A DNA stretch of 34,957 nucleotides, from NCBI GenBank assembly GCA_016930855.1, contig JAFGFX010000388.1:1-34957 (forward strand), read 5' to 3'. Shown here one piece after another: positions 5,888 through 34,957 of the stretch. Below the pieces are notes generated by a model. It saw only the letters and a list, made by a program, of their open reading frames with translations. It was not told the origin of the DNA and did not search any database. A program made the translations under genes and the position numbers. The first letter of the stretch is position 1. Every line of letters begins with the position of its first letter. The stretch comes from Sedimentisphaerales bacterium. Lineage in GTDB: Bacteria > Planctomycetota > Phycisphaerae > Sedimentisphaerales > SM23-30.

Positions 5888-7366
<1,479 letters not shown>

Positions 7367-7472
7367 GACGCATCGAGCACGGGTCAGACGCCGATCGCGG
7401 CGACGTCAGCGGTGACGACGCCGCGAGGGCCGGTCGGCGAGCGGTCTGCTGCTCAAGGGCAATCGCGACACA

Positions 7473-7898
7473 GTGAGTGATAGCATGACGGACCACCAAA
7501 AGATACGCTGCATCGTCATTACCCCGGAACGCCAGGCGGCGGACGCCGAGGCGCTGGCCGTCGTTCTGCCGGCGCACGACGGGCTGGTGGGGGTCCTGCC
7601 CAACCACGCGCCCTTCCTCTGCAAGCTGGGCATGGGGCTGCTGCGCTACCGGGATATCCAGAACCGCGAGCACGCCCTGTTCATCGAGGGCGGCTTCGGC
7701 CATGTCCGCGATAACGAGGTGAGTATCCTGACCCAGACGGCGATCGCCGCGGACAAGATCACCACCGCCGAGGCCGATACGCAGGTCCGCCAGGCCGAGG
7801 CCCTGCCCGCCGCCACCATCGAGGAAGTAGACACCCGCCGACACGCGATCCGGCGGGCCAAGTACCTCCGACAGTTGACCGGCGCAACCGAATCCTGA
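7473..7898 (+). CDS. atpC: F0F1 ATP synthase subunit epsilon
   Basis: VLPAHDGLVGVLPNHAPFLCKLGMGLLRY and C-terminal helical region; operon position. Confidence 0.93.
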   Translation: MSDSMTDHQKIRCIVITPERQAADAEALAVVLPAHDGLVGVLPNHAPFLCKLGMGLLRYRDIQNREHALFIEGGFGHVRDNEVSILTQTAIAADKITTAEADTQVRQAEALPAATIEEVDTRRHAIRRAKYLRQLTGATES

Positions 7899-8041
7899 TC
7901 CGACCAAACCTCCGGCTAATGATAAAGCCGCCCCATTCCGACCAATTCGAATGTTGATCGGGCTAAACGCACAGCAGTTGCGTTTCAACCAACTGCCCAG
8001 GCATCCGAATCCCGATCCGGCAAAACGTACATTCTCCTTTT

Positions 8042-8683
8042 TTAACCGGCCGCGACCGAGCCGCCATGATAGAGTCGATGGTCGCGGATATAGTCGGCCA
8101 CCGCCTCGGGGACCAGGTAGCGGATCGAGCGGTTCCGGCGGACCCGGTCGCGGATGTCCGTGGCGGAGATCTCGATCCCCGGCGTGGCCAGGATGTGCCG
8201 GCGGATGCGGTCGATCTGGTCGGCCGGAAGGGAATCGAGCCGGCGGTCCAGATCGCCGGGCGAATACCCCGGCCGGGCGGCCGTGACGATGATGCATTCC
8301 TCGGCCAGCCGCTGGATCTGGTGCCAGCCGTTTAGCTCCGGGAGGGAATCCGCCCCGATCAGCCAGTACAGGACCGCCTCGAGGCCATAGAGCCCGCGGA
8401 AATGCAGTACGGTGTCCAGCGTATAGCTGGGCCCGGCCCGCCGCAACTCGCAGTCCGAGATTTCGAAGAGATCGTCTCCCGCGACGGCCAGTTGCGCCAG
8501 GCGCAGCCGATGGCCCGCCCCGGTCAGACGCCCGGCGTCCTTGTGCGGCGGCGCGGCCGAGGGGATCAGGATGACGCGATCCGCCTCCAACTGCTCGGCC
8601 GCCGCGCGGCAGGCGATCAGGTGTCCGTGATGGATCGGGTCGAACGTCCCGCCGAATAATACGATTCCTTTATCGCTGCTCAT
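8042..8683 (-). CDS. nadD: Nicotinate-nucleotide adenylyltransferase
   Basis: GIVLFGGTFDPIHHGHLIACRAAAEQL, PSAAPPHKD, YWLIGADSLPELNGWHQ, ISATDIRDRVRRNRSIRYLVPEAVADYI; start taken at internal ATG (MSSDKGIV). Confidence 0.96.
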   Translation of the reverse strand: MSSDKGIVLFGGTFDPIHHGHLIACRAAAEQLEADRVILIPSAAPPHKDAGRLTGAGHRLRLAQLAVAGDDLFEISDCELRRAGPSYTLDTVLHFRGLYGLEAVLYWLIGADSLPELNGWHQIQRLAEECIIVTAARPGYSPGDLDRRLDSLPADQIDRIRRHILATPGIEISATDIRDRVRRNRSIRYLVPEAVADYIRDHRLYHGGSVAAG

Positions 8684-9302
8684 GGTAGGCGCGTATCCCG
8701 TCAAACAGCAACTTGACCTTGTCCGGGTCCTTGCGGCCCGGTTCGCTTTCCACTCCGCTGCACAGATCGATGCCGTAGGTGCCGACGGCCAGGGCCGCCT
8801 TGATCGTTTCCGGGCCGATGCCGCCGGCCAGAAAGACCTTTTTGTCGCCGACCGACCGGACCCATCCCCAGTCGAAGCGGCGGCCCGTCCCGCCATAGAG
8901 GTCACCGCCAAAGGCGTCCAGCAGGATATACTCCGTCTCGAACCGCTCCACCCGCCGGATGTCCTCCGGACGGCGCAGGCGCAGGGCCTTGATCAGCGGC
9001 AGACCCAGCCGGGCCGCCTCCCGGCAGAAGGCCTCGTCCTCGTCGCCGTGCAGTTGCAGCATGGTCAGGGGGCACTGCCGCAATACCTCGGCAATACGGT
9101 CCAGGCCGGCATTGACGAACAGACCCACCCGCTCCGGGCCGTCGGCGGGCAGAACACCGATGATATCGGCCGCTATGGCCGGCTCGATGTATCGGGGACT
9201 GGATGGATAAAAATTGAAGCCCAGCAGATCGGCGCCGCACTCGGCGGCCCAGAGGCCATCGGCCCGGTTCGTGATGCCGCAAATCTTGATCCTGGCCCTC
9301 AT
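8670..9302 (-). CDS. trpF: Phosphoribosylanthranilate isomerase
   Basis: RIKICGITNRADG, GFNFYPSSPRYI, LDAFGGDLYGGTGRRFDW, VFLAGGIGPETIKAA, GIDLCSGVESEPGRKDPDKV; overlaps nadD start by 14 bp. Confidence 0.97.
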   Translation of the reverse strand: MRARIKICGITNRADGLWAAECGADLLGFNFYPSSPRYIEPAIAADIIGVLPADGPERVGLFVNAGLDRIAEVLRQCPLTMLQLHGDEDEAFCREAARLGLPLIKALRLRRPEDIRRVERFETEYILLDAFGGDLYGGTGRRFDWGWVRSVGDKKVFLAGGIGPETIKAALAVGTYGIDLCSGVESEPGRKDPDKVKLLFDGIRAYHEQR

Positions 9303-12461: not shown

Positions 12462-13346
12462 TCAGGCCAGATGACCGATTGCCAGTACGCCGTAGAAGGT
12501 GTATTCGGCATCCAGGATCGGATCGGCCCAGTGGCCGTGGAAGCCCCCCCGCGGATTCCACAGGCTGTGGATATAATCCAGGGACGCCTCCCGCAGCGAT
12601 TGCAGGCAAACGCCCCGCTCGGCCAGGGCATGCAGGGCCGTGGCCGTGGACAGCAGATCGGGCACGGGTGCGGTTTCGGTGGCGTAAAAGCCGCTCTGGC
12701 CGTCGCCGCGGGCCCGCAGCCAGTCGATCGTCTCGGGGCAAACCGGCTGCTGCGCCTCATGCAGCAGGATCACCGCCGCCGCCGTGGTCGGCGTGGTGCC
12801 GGCCGGCAGGTTCGGCTGGTTGGCGAAGCCGCCGTCAGGACGCCGGCAGGATTGGACGAAACGGATGGTATCTGCCTGCGGCGGGATCGGAGGGGAAAGA
12901 CACTGACGGGCATACAGGGCCATGAAGCTGCCGTAGACGCTTGGCCCATCATCGGCGCGGTCCAGACGATACCCACCCCCGGAATCGTAGAACGCGCCAA
13001 GCCGCTCATCCGCCAATTTATCCGCCAGGAGAGCCGCTCCGTCCGCGCCCAGCAGTTTCGCACAGCGGATCCAACTGGCCAGGTGCACCAAATCCAGGCC
13101 GCTTGGATCGACGCACTCCGCCAGATACCCGAGAAGGCGGCCGGCATCCGGCGGCGCAGACAGGCCCGCCAGGGTTTCGGCGGCAAAGGCGGTATAATAC
13201 AGATCGCTCGTGGTGCTGCGGCCGCGAAAGCCCCCGTCGTCAATTTGCAGATCGGCCAGAAAGGCGATGATCCGATCCACCGTCTTACGGGGCAGATACC
13301 GGCCGGCCGCCTGAATCGCCTGGTCCATCGTTTGCCTGATAGTCAT
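12462..13346 (-). CDS. Prenyltransferase/squalene-oxidase repeat protein (Rab-GGTase beta-like alpha/alpha toroid)
   Basis: Repeats DDGGFRGRSTTSDLYYTAFAAETL, PDGGFANQPNLPAGTTPTTAAAVILL, GQSGFYATETAPVPDLLSTATALHAL, GGFHGHWADPILDAEYTFYGVLAIG. Confidence 0.82.
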   Translation of the reverse strand: MTIRQTMDQAIQAAGRYLPRKTVDRIIAFLADLQIDDGGFRGRSTTSDLYYTAFAAETLAGLSAPPDAGRLLGYLAECVDPSGLDLVHLASWIRCAKLLGADGAALLADKLADERLGAFYDSGGGYRLDRADDGPSVYGSFMALYARQCLSPPIPPQADTIRFVQSCRRPDGGFANQPNLPAGTTPTTAAAVILLHEAQQPVCPETIDWLRARGDGQSGFYATETAPVPDLLSTATALHALAERGVCLQSLREASLDYIHSLWNPRGGFHGHWADPILDAEYTFYGVLAIGHLA

Positions 13347-15042
13347 TGCAACAGCCCATGACCGGGACGTCCTGGAAGATCTTGCCGATCACCCGGCGGA
13401 GCATGCTCTTTAAAACAGGATTGTCCAGGCCGCTCAGGGTGCCGATGGCCTGATCCTGGTAGCCAGCCAGCAATTCCGCGGCCAGTTCATCCACCTGGTA
13501 GGTGTGCAGTAAGCGGCGTATCGCCGCGGCGCTCGAGCCGGCCGGTTCCGTATCCTGCCAGAGCCGCCGCAGGAGCAACTTGTCTGGTTCATCGGCCAGC
13601 TCATAGGCCAGGGACGCCAGCAGCGAAGGACCGAGAATCCGCCGCAGTCCCTGCGGATCCCCGGCGTCGGCGGATTGATCCGACCGGTCGAGTCCCTCGG
13701 CGTCCTGCAGATCGTCGCGGATCTGATAGGCGACGCCCAGCGCCTCGCTGTATCGGGATAGGACCGCCTGAAGGGGGCCATCGGCGCCAGCGGCGGCGGC
13801 GCCCAGGCAGAGGGCCACCTCGAAGGCCGGGGCGGTCTTCTGCCGGAAGATCTCACAGACCTGATCGGCCGAGAGCGGTTCGCGATGGCGCAGCCAGTAC
13901 AGCTCCGCCCCTTGACCGAAACACAACGTACGGTGGCCCCGGGCGGCGATGGTGAGCATCTCGGTGATCCGCTCGGAGTCAAAGGGGGCCTCGCCGATGA
14001 GACGGTATCCCTCGCCCAGCAGGAAGTCCCCCACGTTCAGGGCCAATGGGACGCCGTATTCCTCGTGAAGGGTTTTTTGGCCGTAGCGGACCGGGTCGTT
14101 GTCCTCGATGTCGTCGTGGATCAGGGAGGCCTTGTGGAAGCATTCCACCGCCAGCAGCAGCGGCCGGATCGCCTCGACCAGGGGTTCGGCCGGATCCGGC
14201 TGCATGGCCTGATGGACGCAGGCGGTCAGAAACGGACGCCACCTCTTGCCGGAGCGGGCCAGCCATTCGCGGCCGATCCGCTCGGTCTCATTTTGCACCG
14301 GCCCCAGCGCCGCTTCCAGTGCCTCTAGGGTGAACCAACCGTCGATTTGCCGCCGCAGGGAGCGAAAATCTAGATTGGCGACGCCCTCGGAGCCGCTCAG
14401 ATGAATCGCGTCCCAGACCCAGTCCTGATCCACATCGGTCCGGCGGCATCCGTCCCGCAGCAGCGGAATGGCGATCCCGGGAATCGCCGCCGCCTCCATG
14501 TAGGGAAAGACCTTTTCCAGGACCGCCAGGCAACTGACCCCCACGACCGCCTCGATCTGGCCCGATTCAATGAGGGCCATCACCATGGGCGAGCCTTCCG
14601 CCACCATCACCACGTAACCGAGCGACTCGGCCTCGGCCTGTAGGTCGCAAATCAGACAGTTGCCGCAGCGGGCACACACTAGGCCGTATTCGTCGATCCG
14701 GCCCCGGCAGAGGGTCGGATGACGCAGGCACTGGGGCAACAGCAGCAAGCGCCGGGAAAAGGGTATCCCCGCCAGCCGGTCGCGCCAGACCTCGTTGTTC
14801 AGCAGTACCGCGGCATAGCGCAGGAAGCGGGGATCGAGCTTCTCCTTCTGCAGGACGTCCCGGGCGCCGCGGCGCAATTGCTCGGCCGACAGGGGCCCGA
14901 TCAGACGTTCCTGCCTGACGTATCGCTGTGCAGCCTGCCGCAACCGGTTCCGCTGCGTCTTGCGGTTGCAGATATCCGCCTGCACTGAACGTACCGATTG
15001 CAGGGCCACGGACAGGGAAGATGGTGCCGGCGATTTATCCAT
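13285..15042 (-). CDS. Fusion protein: N-terminal DUF116-like Cys-rich domain + C-terminal trans-isoprenyl (polyprenyl) diphosphate synthase
   Basis: C-terminal half: GKRWRPFLTA, HKASLIHDDIEDNDPVRYGQKTLHEEYG (FARM) and GVAYQIRDDLQDAEG (SARM). N-terminal half: CLRHPTLC...CARCGNCLICDLQAEAESLGYVVMVAEGSPMV and GVSCLAVLEKVFPYMEAAAIPGIAIPLLRDGC, resembling DUF116. Confidence 0.88.
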   Translation of the reverse strand: MDKSPAPSSLSVALQSVRSVQADICNRKTQRNRLRQAAQRYVRQERLIGPLSAEQLRRGARDVLQKEKLDPRFLRYAAVLLNNEVWRDRLAGIPFSRRLLLLPQCLRHPTLCRGRIDEYGLVCARCGNCLICDLQAEAESLGYVVMVAEGSPMVMALIESGQIEAVVGVSCLAVLEKVFPYMEAAAIPGIAIPLLRDGCRRTDVDQDWVWDAIHLSGSEGVANLDFRSLRRQIDGWFTLEALEAALGPVQNETERIGREWLARSGKRWRPFLTACVHQAMQPDPAEPLVEAIRPLLLAVECFHKASLIHDDIEDNDPVRYGQKTLHEEYGVPLALNVGDFLLGEGYRLIGEAPFDSERITEMLTIAARGHRTLCFGQGAELYWLRHREPLSADQVCEIFRQKTAPAFEVALCLGAAAAGADGPLQAVLSRYSEALGVAYQIRDDLQDAEGLDRSDQSADAGDPQGLRRILGPSLLASLAYELADEPDKLLLRRLWQDTEPAGSSAAAIRRLLHTYQVDELAAELLAGYQDQAIGTLSGLDNPVLKSMLRRVIGKIFQDVPVMGCCNDYQANDGPGDSGGRPVSAP

Positions 15043-16861: not shown

Positions 16862-17831
16862 CGTCCCCCTCGTCGCAGTCGCACTGGCAATCGCAGGGGC
16901 CGCCGCCGCACCGAGAAGACGAATCGGCTGCGGTTTCCGGCGTCGTCGCCGCCGGCGTGGCCGAACCGGACACCGACCGCTCGGTCGAACAACCGCCGGA
17001 CGGCTTTGTCGGGCAGGACCCGCAAGAGCAGGGACCAGAATCCACTCTATCGGAGGGGGTGTCGGTTGTTTCATCCGGTACGGCAAACCGCCCGCTGGCC
17101 GCCGCTATGCCCCTTTGACGCAGGGCGGCATAGATGTCGGTCTGTTTGATCCGGTCCACCTCGACGGCGAGATCCTTCCTCTGCTCATCCGCCGCCGTGA
17201 CCGGCGACCCGTTGATGGGCGCATGTGCCTCCTTGGGGAAGATGATCGCCACTTCCGGGCAGATCCGGGCGCAGGCCGGACAGTTGGTCTTGCAGTTTTC
17301 CGGCCGGGCCACCTCGACGCGCCCCTGGGCATCCAGGGCGAACACGCCGAAGAGACAAAAATTCATACACTGCTTGCATTGCCGGCAGCGATCGTAATCC
17401 AGCACGGGAAACCACGCTGTCCAGTCGTCCGCCCGCTCCCAGCGGAGATGACGATCATGTTGATGTCGTTGCGGTTCGCCCGATCCGGCGGCGGGAGCAG
17501 AGCGGGCCATTTCGGCCTGCAAAAGCTGGACCGCATCCTCGGGCGATTCGCTGCGCAGATTGATCACCCGCAGCGCGTCGGGCATCCCGACGCCCGCCCG
17601 CCCCAGCAGCCAGCGAATGGTGCGGGGGAAACAAGCCAGCAGGATCGTATCCGGCGTGATGATCTCGGGTAGCCGCCGGTCCCGCCGGGCCGCCAATCCG
17701 CACAGGTCCGCCACCTCCAGCCAGTCGACCGGGGATGCCTCCAGCAGGTCCAGGACGGCCTGCCGGGTTTGCTCCGGCGCCAACTGGGGATAATCACAAC
17801 GACAATAGATGATCCGGGGTAGGGCGTTCAA
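16827..17831 (-). CDS. 2[4Fe-4S] ferredoxin-domain protein with Cys-rich C-terminal tail
   Basis: [16 protein letters not shown] and [17 protein letters not shown] cluster motifs; tail with CSCGSC and [12 protein letters not shown]...SCC. Confidence 0.88.
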
Positions 17832-31279: not shown

Positions 31280-32551
31280 TCACATATACGTGGCGCACCT
31301 CGGCGGGACCGGCCGGCGGCCAAAGCGCACGTAGACCGGCAGGCCGTCCGCGGCGATCTTCACCCTGACCTGGCCCTGCACCAGCGGCCGGACGTAATCC
31401 TTCATCGCCTCGGTAATGTGATTGCCGGCCGGATGGATATACTCCGGCGGCACCTTCTTCTCGCCGTTGGCCACGTCGCGCAGCTCGGCCAGGCCGGTGG
31501 TGCATTCATAATGGTCGCCGTCCTGGCGCTGGAGGGTGACCATCTTGCCGTTGACGCCCGCCAGGGCCTGCCGGACCGCCGTCGCGCCGCACAGCCAGGC
31601 CTCGTCCACATCCGTCTGGCTGGCGAAGTGCATGGCGCTGCGCTGGTTGGTGCCGAGCTTGTTCCAGCGGGCCTTGATCCCCACCTCCTTCTCGATGACG
31701 ACCTTGAGCATGTCGGCAACCCCCCCGAGCTGCTGATGGCCGAAGCTGTCCTTGCTGAACGAGCCGCTGTCGGCCGTGACGTACTGGCCCTTTTCGTCCT
31801 TGATCCCCTCGCCGACGGCGATGAACACCCGGCCGAGCCGCTGGTGCACTTCCTTGACGTCCCGGACAAATTTCTCGAAGGTGAAGGCCGACTCCGGCAG
31901 GTAGATCAGGTGCGGGGCGTCCTCCGGCGTGCGGGCCGCCAGGCCCGTCGCCGCCGCGATCCAGCCGGCGTTGCGCCCCATGACCTCCAGGATCGTGCAG
32001 GTGTCCGTGGTGTAGAGGGCCTCGGTGTCCTTGCCCGCCTCCATGGCGCAGGTTGCCACGTACTTCGCCACGCTGCCGTAGCCCGGACAGTGATCGGTGT
32101 AGGCCAAATCGTTGTCGATCGTCTTGGGCACCCCCATGCAGGTCAGCTCGTAGCCGGTCTCGGCCGCCAGCCGGTTGACCTTGTCGCAGGTGTCCATCGA
32201 GTCGTTGCCGCCGGCGTAGAAAAAGTAGCGAATCTCGTGGGCACTGAACACCTCCAAAATCCGCTCGTAATCCGCCCGATTCTCGTCCAGCGAGCCAAGC
32301 TTGTACCGGCAGGACCCGAACGCCGCCGCCGGGCAGCGCCGTAGTTCGTTGACCTTGCGCTTACCCTCCGCGCCGATATCGAAGATTTCCTCCCGCAGCA
32401 CGCCCAGGATGCCGTTGATCGCCCCAAAAACCTTGCCGACCCTGCCGGATTCCAGGGCCTGCTGGACCACGCCGCAGACGCTGGCATTGATCACCGCCGT
32501 CGGGCCGCCGGACTGGGCCACCACCGCATTGGCTTTCGCTGTCATGGGCAA
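31280..32551 (-). CDS. 6-phosphofructokinase, predicted PPi-dependent
   Basis: VAQSGGPTAVINAS, FYAGGNDSMDT, GVPKTIDNDLAYTDHCPGYGSVAKY, EVMGRNAGWIAA. Confidence 0.92.
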   Translation of the reverse strand: MPMTAKANAVVAQSGGPTAVINASVCGVVQQALESGRVGKVFGAINGILGVLREEIFDIGAEGKRKVNELRRCPAAAFGSCRYKLGSLDENRADYERILEVFSAHEIRYFFYAGGNDSMDTCDKVNRLAAETGYELTCMGVPKTIDNDLAYTDHCPGYGSVAKYVATCAMEAGKDTEALYTTDTCTILEVMGRNAGWIAAATGLAARTPEDAPHLIYLPESAFTFEKFVRDVKEVHQRLGRVFIAVGEGIKDEKGQYVTADSGSFSKDSFGHQQLGGVADMLKVVIEKEVGIKARWNKLGTNQRSAMHFASQTDVDEAWLCGATAVRQALAGVNGKMVTLQRQDGDHYECTTGLAELRDVANGEKKVPPEYIHPAGNHITEAMKDYVRPLVQGQVRVKIAADGLPVYVRFGRRPVPPRCATYM

Positions 32552-33445
32552 CCTCCGAGATCCGATCGCATCGCAACAATCAGCAAATACAAGTAAAACC
32601 CTGTCAAAAAAGCAATTGCGCCGCTACCCTCTCCGGGAGCCAGCGCCGCCGGAATCCAGGGGAGTGGATTATCCAGGCTGCCCAAACCCATGTCAAGCAT
32701 TCGTTTAAGGCCGGATTCGGCCGCGTTCGTCCGCCGCTCGGCACGAGCAAATCCATTCCATCCAACAAGAAGAGACCTACCAGAAAACATCACACCGTCA
32801 AGGATACCGACGCAGAATCCCTCTGTCAGATAAGCCCGCCTCGAACATGGCCGACGACCGGCAAGACCGACCACGGAAAATCCCGCCCCAGCCCCAAGAA
32901 ACCGACCGGCCGCCAGATACGCCATCCGAATAGGTTTCACACCAACAGCACTAGGAGAAAATAAACCGGCGGAATCTGGTGAAAATGGACGTAACTTCCA
33001 ACAGGGCAATCTGTTACATCTTGCCTGCCCCGCCGGCGGCCCCTCCGGCGATTTTGGTCGATTTTCCCGGCCGGCCCGCGCTACGGACCGCACGGCCCCC
33101 AAAATCATAAAAATATTATTTACAAGCACTTACAAAATTTATCCGCCATTGCCGCATACCCGGCAACGCCTGCGGCCAAAACCATCCCTACCCAACTTTC
33201 AATACTGATACAAACCATAAATTTGATCCAGTCCGATAAAATGGTAAAGTTACAATAGCGTAAAAACCGAAAAACATACTAGCGAAGGTGGCACTTGTCG
33301 ATTTTGGACTGATCAAACATCGAATCGTGGGAATCGTAATCGTTTGGGGGCTGGATCCTAACGAAAACCAACATAGGTTCGCGAAAGTGCCAACAGCGGC
33401 ATGTCCATATGTTGATCCAGACGGTCAGGGGTGAAAGGGGATGGT

Positions 33446-34657
33446 ATGCGTACTATTGCTATCATCAATCAGAAGGGCGGTTGCGGCAAAACCACCGTCG
33501 TGATCAACTTGGCCGCCAGTCTGGCCCAACACGACAGACGCACCCTGCTAATCGATATAGACCCGCAGTCGCACTGCGCCGTGGGACTGGCGGTCCCGGA
33601 AGACCAGATCGAGCGAAATATCTATGACGTGCTGATTTCCGCCTTTTCCGACAGCAAGACCGACCTGAAGAGCATCATCTGGCAGATCGCCCAACATTTC
33701 GACCTGGCCCCCTCCGGCATCGAGCTGGCGGCCCTGGAACCGCAGCTGGCCGGCCAGGACCACCGGGAGGAATGCCTCAAAAACGTCCTCCAGGAACAGG
33801 CCGGCCATTACGACTACGTGGTGATCGACTGCCCGCCCAGCGTCGGCCTGCTGACCTTCAACGCCCTGCGGGCGGCGGACGAGGTGATCATCCCCGTGGA
33901 AACCGGCTACTTCGCCCTGCACGGGCTGGCCAAACAACTGGAAACCCTCACCGTCCTGCGCGAGCAGTGCCGCCAGGAGATCTGCTTTCGGGTCCTGGCC
34001 ACCATGTACGACGTCCGGACCAAACTGGCACGCGAGGTGCTCAACGAACTGCGCAAGCATTACGGGCCGGAGATGTTCCAGTCCGTCATCAACTTCAACA
34101 CCAAACTCAAGGAGGCCGCCAGTTTCGGCCAGGCCATCACCGAATACGACCCGGCCAGCAAGGGCATGCGCGATTTCATGGCCCTGGCGCAGGAAATTAT
34201 CCAAACGGAACCGGCCCAGAAAGAGCAGGAACGGATTGTCAGCGTCGAGGATCAGTTGAAGGCCATCAGCAAGAGCGCCGATGAGCTGCTCAGTGAATCC
34301 AAGAAATTGATCGGCGCCAAGCCGGCCGGTTCCCGGCCCCGACCCGCCGCCAGCATTCAGGAAAAGATCGACACCCTGTACGGCGTCCGACAGAATCAGG
34401 GACAGGTGGAGTTCGTCGCCCTTTACCCCTCGGCCACAAGCGTGCAGTTAGCCGGCGATTTCAACAACTGGGAGCCGGAGCAAACACCGCTGGCACCCGC
34501 GGGCGACAACGGACGATGGAACGTCCGTTTGCCCTTGCCGACCGGTCGTTATCATTACCGCTATGTCGTTGACGGCCGCTGGCAACCGGACCCCTACAAC
34601 GAATGCACCGAACCCAACCCCTTCGGCGAATACAACTCCGTCGTCGAAGTCAAATAA
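33446..34657 (+). CDS. ParA-family ATPase with C-terminal CBM48/AMPK-beta-type glycogen-binding domain
   Basis: ParA: IAIINQKGGCGKTTVVINLAASLA (deviant Walker A), LLIDIDPQSHCAVGL, YVVIDCPPSVGLLTFNALRAADEVIIPVE. CBM48: VEFVALYPSATSVQLAGDFNNWEPEQTPL...GRWNVRLPLPTGRYHYRYVVDGRWQPDPYNECTEPNPFGEYNSVVEV; ATG at 33446 (upstream GTG at 33431 also possible). Confidence 0.93.
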   Translation: MRTIAIINQKGGCGKTTVVINLAASLAQHDRRTLLIDIDPQSHCAVGLAVPEDQIERNIYDVLISAFSDSKTDLKSIIWQIAQHFDLAPSGIELAALEPQLAGQDHREECLKNVLQEQAGHYDYVVIDCPPSVGLLTFNALRAADEVIIPVETGYFALHGLAKQLETLTVLREQCRQEICFRVLATMYDVRTKLAREVLNELRKHYGPEMFQSVINFNTKLKEAASFGQAITEYDPASKGMRDFMALAQEIIQTEPAQKEQERIVSVEDQLKAISKSADELLSESKKLIGAKPAGSRPRPAASIQEKIDTLYGVRQNQGQVEFVALYPSATSVQLAGDFNNWEPEQTPLAPAGDNGRWNVRLPLPTGRYHYRYVVDGRWQPDPYNECTEPNPFGEYNSVVEVK

Positions 34658-34660
34658 CCG

Positions 34661-34712
34661 GGCCAACCGGGCCAACGGGAGCAGACAGGCCAAGGGGAGC
34701 AGACGGGCCAAG
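34661..34712. repeat. Degenerate ~18-bp direct repeats (ggagcagac(a/g)ggccaagg)
   Basis: cgggagcagacaggccaaggggagcagacgggccaaggggagca read directly 3' of the ParA-CBM48 stop codon. Confidence 0.7.
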
Positions 34713-34939
34713 GGGAGCAACAAAGATAGCGGTAGTGGCAGGTGCAACGAGGGTGTAAGGGCGTCTAACAAAACCGGTGCGCTAGACCAAACCAGGATGG
34801 TGTTATCCAGCGGCCGGCAGTTATGTTAGAGTTTATAGGTGTGCCAACGGCAGCAATGGGTCAGACGGAGCAAATCGGGTCGGCGGCTTATAGCGGGGCG
34901 ATAAAGGCGTTCCAACACCAAACGAAATAAGAGACACGG

Positions 34940-34957
34940 ATGTCAGACGTTCCTTCA
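34940..34957 (+). CDS. Possible start of the next gene (MSDVPS...), truncated by the window end
   Basis: ATG TCA GAC GTT CCT TCA runs open to the edge; only six codons visible. Confidence 0.2.

Follow-up and report, generated by a model that had tools for sequence, protein, structure and literature searches.

A ParA-type ATPase fused to a glycogen-binding domain is conserved across the Phycisphaerae and often adjoins a gene for an FlhG-like pseudo-ATPase

Results

A single gene joins a ParA/Soj ATPase to a CBM48 domain

The window (the whole 34,957-nucleotide stretch analysed here, contig C53) belongs to a 3.9 Mb genome in 406 contigs, 84% complete, from the Sedimentisphaerales, an order of the class Phycisphaerae in the Planctomycetota (PMC11266412). 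Close to its end, positions 33446–34657 of the forward strand form an uninterrupted reading frame that translates to 403 amino acids and a stop codon (protein P0001). This parA–CBM48 fusion gene, identified by translation, Pfam and its orthologues, is present in one copy in the genome. Its start is placed at a conserved ATG at 33446; an in-frame GTG at 33431 would lengthen the protein by five residues. Short tandem repeats (9 bp x 2.3 and 18 bp x 2.8) occupy 34656–34719, between the fusion stop codon and the contig end.

Residues 1–250 (33446–34195, forward strand, as for all features of the fusion below) form the ParA/Soj ATPase domain, with a Pfam AAA_31 match of 8.6e-52 over residues 1–179 and Soj/ParA proteins as the closest folds in Foldseek (target-normalised TM about 0.9). 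The protein carries the full ParA/Soj set of a deviant Walker A with its signature lysine (KGGCGKTT, 33473–33496), a Walker A' and a Walker B (DCPPS, residues 128–132, 33827–33841). The signature Lys10 and the P-loop Lys15 are invariant (112/112 ungapped at these columns, from 113 distinct proteins), as are D37, D39 and D128 in a 22-row alignment. The AlphaFold2 model (mean pLDDT 86) continues from the ParA domain into a single helix at residues 239–289 (34160–34312), which shows a conserved LLxxAxxLxxxAxxLLA pattern, then into a short disordered stretch and a confidently predicted beta-sandwich. This last module, residues 313–403 (34382–34654), is a CBM48/AMPK-beta glycogen-binding domain. 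Both Pfam families that describe it exceed their curated cut-offs: AMPK1_CBM (PF16561) at 1.3e-12 over residues 330–403 (48.2 bits against 26.8) and CBM_48 at 1.5e-9 (38.4 bits against 22.4).

An earlier note, made from the sequence alone, had read a continuous ORF with a complete ParA/Soj ATPase, a charged linker and a C-terminal CBM48. Each part of that description is borne out: the motifs it quoted are present where it placed them, and the charged linker falls inside the long predicted helix.

The AMPK-type sugar site is intact

The best PDB match of the C-terminal module is the AMPK-beta glycogen-binding domain, and its profile matches AMPK-beta chains at 1e-9. Alignment to 4y0g and 2f15 pairs Trp342 (34469–34471), Arg372 (34559–34561), Trp379 (34580–34582) and Asn397 (34634–34636) with W100, K126, W133 and N150 of AMPK-beta1, all four of them sugar-contact residues. 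The note's residue-level reading by eye, two Trp and the Asn kept with Lys replaced by Arg, therefore agrees with the alignment. Across the family the same residues are found in 112/113, 113/113, 111/113 and 106/113 proteins, respectively, and all four together in 105/113. Among 92 CBM positions ranked by conservation, R372 stands 3rd, W342 6th, W379 12th and N397 18th. The equivalent of AMPK T148 is Glu or Asp in most fusion members. In AMPK-beta, W100, K126 and W133 are all required for glycogen binding, and glycogen bound at this domain inhibits the kinase (PMC2642990, PMC6274970). Judged from this conservation, the sugar-contact Trp residues are not likely to have been kept so well without any ligand.

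CBM48 domains of this type are also found unfused. The window's genome (G000) encodes a standalone 93-residue AMPK-type CBM48 protein (Pfam 1.9e-17) on the reverse strand of contig C372 at about 17270–17540 (L200:9271–9552), and comparable single-domain proteins (ORFs of 119–129 aa) are found in several genomes of the class.

DNA-contact positions and the relation to ParB

For non-specific DNA binding by ParA, the best-supported basic positions are R195 and R224 of CcParA (PMC7229837). The first is kept in the fusion family as R191 in 98/113 proteins and the second as K/R220 in 106/113. Phe217 of the fusion occupies the DNA-contact position of HpParA K227 and CcParA R221. Nucleoid binding by the fusion ATPase is thus plausible from its residues and is made uncertain by the phenylalanine at this one position.

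The usual arrangement of a chromosomal ParA is a soj–spo0J pair. The earlier note saw no ParB or parS, which is true of the window, and considered the protein unlikely to be the canonical chromosomal ParA. The genome-level data agree with this assessment. ParB is encoded in 43/45 genomes, including that of the window, where it lies on another contig (C335); relatives have other ParA paralogues. In the complete genomes G061, G088 and G102, ParB is far from the fusion, and in G033 the two are about 145 kb apart. A canonical soj–parB locus was rejected on these grounds, ParB being elsewhere in the genome. Representatives of families f4 and f23 lack the fusion, yet keep ParB and another ParA.

Two observations bear on the general placement of parB in these genomes. 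In one locus (L222, genome G127) the fusion (7285–8733) and ParB (12675–13739) are about 4 kb apart, the only such case seen. In the complete genomes G033, G061, G088, G102 and G020, parB is adjacent to none of the ParA-type genes found.

A downstream partner gene encodes an FlhG/FleN-like pseudo-ATPase

The window's contig ends at 34957, 300 bases past the fusion gene, where a partner gene would begin; the partner was invisible to the earlier note because the contig stops there. A possible start of this gene (MSDVPS..., 34940–34957, forward strand), cut by the contig end, is suggested by comparison with relatives. In relatives of the same family with enough sequence, the next gene downstream is the partner, 386–587 aa long and mostly 4–9 bases away. 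Overall, the partner adjoins the fusion in 25/52 genomes searched, often with gaps of 0–12 bases, and it does so also in a locus outside the class (L198). It is not adjacent to the fusion in f2, f6 and f7 of the same order, nor in f9, f18 and f19.

Pfam returned nothing significant for the partner, which was identified through profile comparison, FlhG homology and structure. Its middle domain scores 43.7 against a ParA profile (best of 30 column-shuffled controls, 17.3) and matches the genome's own FlhG better, at 2e-22 by HMM. The genuine FlhG has its gene at another site, next to FlhF and FlhA. In the predicted structure (mean pLDDT 78), all top 10 PDB matches in Foldseek are FlhG/FleN proteins, with E values from 2e-7 to 3e-4. 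Because the Walker A GKGGVGK is replaced by a sequence without the P-loop lysines, we regard the partner as a pseudo-ATPase. On either side of this domain lie an N-terminal disordered arm with one short helix of the approximate pattern [ILV]xx[ILV][AS][HD]L[FYL]L[ST] (26/29 partners by a somewhat looser pattern) and a confidently predicted C-terminal alpha/beta domain with no recognised relative (e.g. L205 residues 336–478). In many families the gene downstream of the fusion is tightly linked to it and encodes an FlhG/FleN-like pseudo-ATPase whose disordered arm bears a conserved N-terminal helix.

In ParB, an N-terminal motif binds and activates ParA (PMC12462528). The true ParBs of genomes in the class carry LG[KR]GLxSL near their start, the LG[KR]GL motif being present at the N-terminus in all five that were read. 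By analogy, we infer that the N-terminal helix of the partner is an activator of the ATPase. The partner N-terminus at L198 (genome G414), KLGRGIEDFIGAF, closely resembles the ParA-binding motif of ParB.

The fusion is class-wide and mostly vertically inherited

Full-length matches at 54–71% identity were found in 33 of the genomes searched, and most of the other genomes have the same fusion with a longer linker. Since full-length fusion orthologues are encoded in most genomes of the order and also occur class-wide, both chance and artefact are ruled out; an assembly, binning or frameshift artefact and a chance ORF were accordingly discarded as candidates, as was restriction of the feature to the order. 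The CBM profile has matches in 255/348 genomes of the class. At 20 loci from other families the fusion is intact in 19; in the remaining one (L133) it is divided between two overlapping frames.

A class panel of 80 genomes contains at least 57 carriers of the architecture for which the earlier note had proposed a genome search, together with 22 non-carriers and one orthologue lacking the CBM (G117). Within f8 and f17, direct reading showed the CBM in four genomes (G060, G092, G069 and G086), and its presence was assumed for the remaining f17 members. Profile coordinates had suggested that f8 and f17 lack the CBM, and this was rejected when it was seen on reading the proteins. The non-carriers are f4 (Sedimentisphaera-type genomes), most of f11, f16 and f23.

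In a phylum sample of 393 genomes, strong matches to the full-length profile fall almost entirely within the Phycisphaerae. Of the two exceptions, G414 has a genuine fusion (39% identity) together with the partner gene, and G707 has a ParA only. The ParA domains of 115 fusion-family members form one clade (support 0.98), and nine other ParA proteins of the same genomes fall apart from it. The class-wide spread and the single ParA clade indicate that the fusion arose early and has mostly been passed on by vertical descent, with some losses. The ParA of L198 (G414) falls inside the class clade, which makes horizontal transfer possible in that case. The orthologue in G117 (L156) ends after the ParA domain and linker, and the sugar site has decayed in two proteins of f24, the sole clear cases of decay seen; glucan binding is therefore dispensable in some lineages.

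Beyond the phylum, plasmids, phages and, in one narrow pattern-based scan, genome contigs were covered. The plasmid search returned mostly ordinary ParA, with 10 records covering at least 80% of the query, the best of the ten at 37% identity; the phage search returned zero records covering 80% of the query. A plasmid or phage origin was rejected after these searches. Other matches of the pattern scan were a lipoprotein-like protein with tandem CBM48 (L036) and a weak match in the Bacteroidales (L037). In the open-access literature searched, we located no description of a ParA with CBM48, glycogen or the Phycisphaerae.

The fusion does not track storage-glycogen synthesis

The window's own genome encodes GlgB and MalQ together and two GlgP proteins, one of them next to GT4 and GH57 genes. 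In the 80-genome panel, which for GlgA included G063 in place of the window's genome, GT5 GlgA was found in 0/57 carriers and only in G020 and G024, both without the fusion. A GT3 synthase is present in 28/57 carriers vs 11/22 non-carriers (p = 1), and alpha-glucan phosphorylase in 48/57 vs 21/22 (no association; 70/80 class genomes overall). GH13 GlgB is weakly enriched (12/57 carriers vs 0/22, p = 0.017, uncorrected for relatedness). In 24 of the 57 carriers, the single-contig genomes G061 and G093 included, none of GT3, GT5 and GH13-GlgB was recognised; carriers may use a GT4 or GH57 glucan route that escapes recognition. Alpha-glucan is broadly available, but the fusion does not track the synthesis of storage glycogen. 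Classical glycogen synthesis was rejected as an explanation, with GT5 absent from carriers, GT3 and GlgP unassociated and GH13 GlgB weakly enriched. As a side observation, the GT3 (eukaryote/fungal-type) synthase is found with very strong scores in half of the sampled Phycisphaerae (e.g. L230, L231), where GT5 GlgA is almost absent.

Clustering the gene neighbourhoods of 61 loci brought out the partner and lineage-specific synteny, but no glg gene. A glycogen operon context was likewise rejected, as conservation does not extend to the neighbours seen in the window (PPi-dependent PFK, gnd, rhaA). The gene beside the fusion, at 31280–32551 on the reverse strand, encodes a PPi-dependent phosphofructokinase (PRK14072, 560 bits) and is not a conserved neighbour in relatives.

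Taken against the earlier note, a ParA-type ATPase fused to a CBM48 with an intact sugar site stands, and the positioning of glycogen granules, in the form proposed there, is not supported: no carrier has GT5, GT3 is unassociated, 24/57 carriers lack GT3, GT5 and GH13-GlgB, and no glg neighbour is conserved.

Discussion

By sequence and model, the fusion is an ATPase with all catalytic motifs and an intact AMPK-type sugar site, conserved vertically across a class. It shares with Soj/ParA proteins (T. thermophilus Soj 1wcv, H. pylori Soj 6iub, PDB 8ray) the deviant Walker A, the Walker B and the overall fold, at about 40% identity over 250 aa and a target-normalised TM of about 0.9. It differs from them in its added C-terminal helix and CBM48, in a partner that is not ParB and in the Phe at one DNA-contact position. 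Like McdA/McdB and other orphan positioning ParAs, it is a ParA-type ATPase apparently not tied to parS and with a linked partner gene, but its ligand module sits on the ATPase itself and its partner is a large FlhG-like pseudo-ATPase. The CBM resembles the AMPK-beta domain (CBM48; 1z0n, 4y0g) in fold, W100, W133, N150 and, as Arg, Lys126, and departs from it in the changed T148 and in being attached to a ParA ATPase rather than a kinase complex. The partner's middle domain is akin to the MinD-like ATPases FlhG/FleN (4rz2, 5j1j), whereas the partner has lost the Walker A and is extended by a helix motif at its N-terminus and a further domain at its C-terminus. A distant fold match to the cellulose-secretion regulators BcsQ/BcsR offers another ParA-like ATPase linked to polysaccharide biology, though at 15–17% identity, with no CBM and with no bcs genes seen near the fusion.

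We propose, tentatively and at somewhat short of even probability, a ParA switch made of two proteins, in which the ATPase binds alpha-glucan through its CBM48 and acts as a sensor or tether. In this scheme the C-terminal domain would recognise an intracellular alpha-glucan (glycogen or maltodextrin), and the fusion would work as an ATP-driven spatial switch. ATP-bound dimers may assemble on the nucleoid, since most members keep the two main basic positions through which ParA binds DNA. The N-terminal helix of the partner would dock at the ParA dimer and trigger hydrolysis, as the N-terminal peptide of ParB does. Glucan bound at the CBM could either tether the ATPase to the polysaccharide or shift its ATPase/dimer cycle, as glycogen acts on AMPK, and the position or activity of the system would thereby report carbohydrate status.

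Other explanations were weighed against the same data. The CBM could take glycogen granules as cargo, which a nucleoid ParA gradient would then space or segregate as McdA does with carboxysomes. The ParA/McdA-like fold, the intact glycogen-type site, GT3 in 28/57 carriers and the occurrence of GH13 GlgB in 12/57 carriers vs 0/22 non-carriers are consistent with such a role, but we judge it rather unlikely given that GT5 GlgA occurs in zero carriers, that GT3 is equally common without the fusion, that 24/57 carriers (G061 and G093 among them) lack recognised GT3, GT5 and GH13-GlgB, albeit with a GT4 route possible, that no glg neighbour is conserved, and that the cargo of known systems binds the partner and not the ATPase. 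The lack of association with glycogen synthesis genes would also fit retention of the CBM48 fold as a protein-interaction or other-glycan module whose ligand is not an alpha-glucan. So would the changed T148 equivalent, the Lys-to-Arg change at K126 and the small standalone CBM48 proteins in the same genomes. We nonetheless hold this to be unlikely, as both Trp, the Arg and the Asn belong to the best-conserved residues of the CBM, which is hard to explain without a carbohydrate ligand.

A role as the chromosome-segregation ParA of the class, acting with ParB and with the CBM adding minor regulation only, is in our estimate improbable. Three points argue against it: ParB lies far from the fusion in the majority of complete genomes (G061, G088, G102); the fusion is absent from f4 and from most f11, f16 and f23 genomes, with ParB and another ParA kept in the f4 and f23 representatives; and the fusion has its own linked partner. 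In its favour, the closest folds of the fusion are Soj/ParA, ParB (with the LG[KR]GL N-terminal motif in five read) is encoded in 43/45 genomes, and in the complete genomes checked the other ParA genes have no ParB beside them either. An assembly, binning or frameshift artefact that joined two genes has a negligible probability: nothing was found in its favour, although the assembly is fragmented (406 contigs), and independent orthologues of the same architecture are present in dozens of genomes, single-contig ones included.

We favour glucan sensing or tethering over obligatory transport of storage granules; the fusion's failure to track storage-glycogen synthesis weighs against the latter and is easier to reconcile with a sensor or a tether. 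Taken singly, the ATPase, CBM and FlhG fold are already known, and as far as we checked their combination, the class-wide retention and the pseudo-ATPase partner have not been described. More doubtful than probable, in our view, is the broader proposal of an undescribed, class-ancestral two-protein ParA system in which the ATPase binds storage polysaccharide, the FlhG-derived pseudo-ATPase activates it, and glucan reserves would be coupled to division, to the organisation of the nucleoid or to the inheritance of glucan.

A ParA ATPase usually engages its cargo by way of a separate adaptor. In this family the ATPase carries a polysaccharide-binding module of its own, the binding site of which is kept across a whole class. 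How the phylum to which this class belongs divides is poorly understood, and some members of the class are in culture. If glucan is sensed or carried by the fusion, the system would tie carbohydrate reserves directly and physically to spatial organisation in bacteria, in a manner comparable to glycogen sensing by AMPK.
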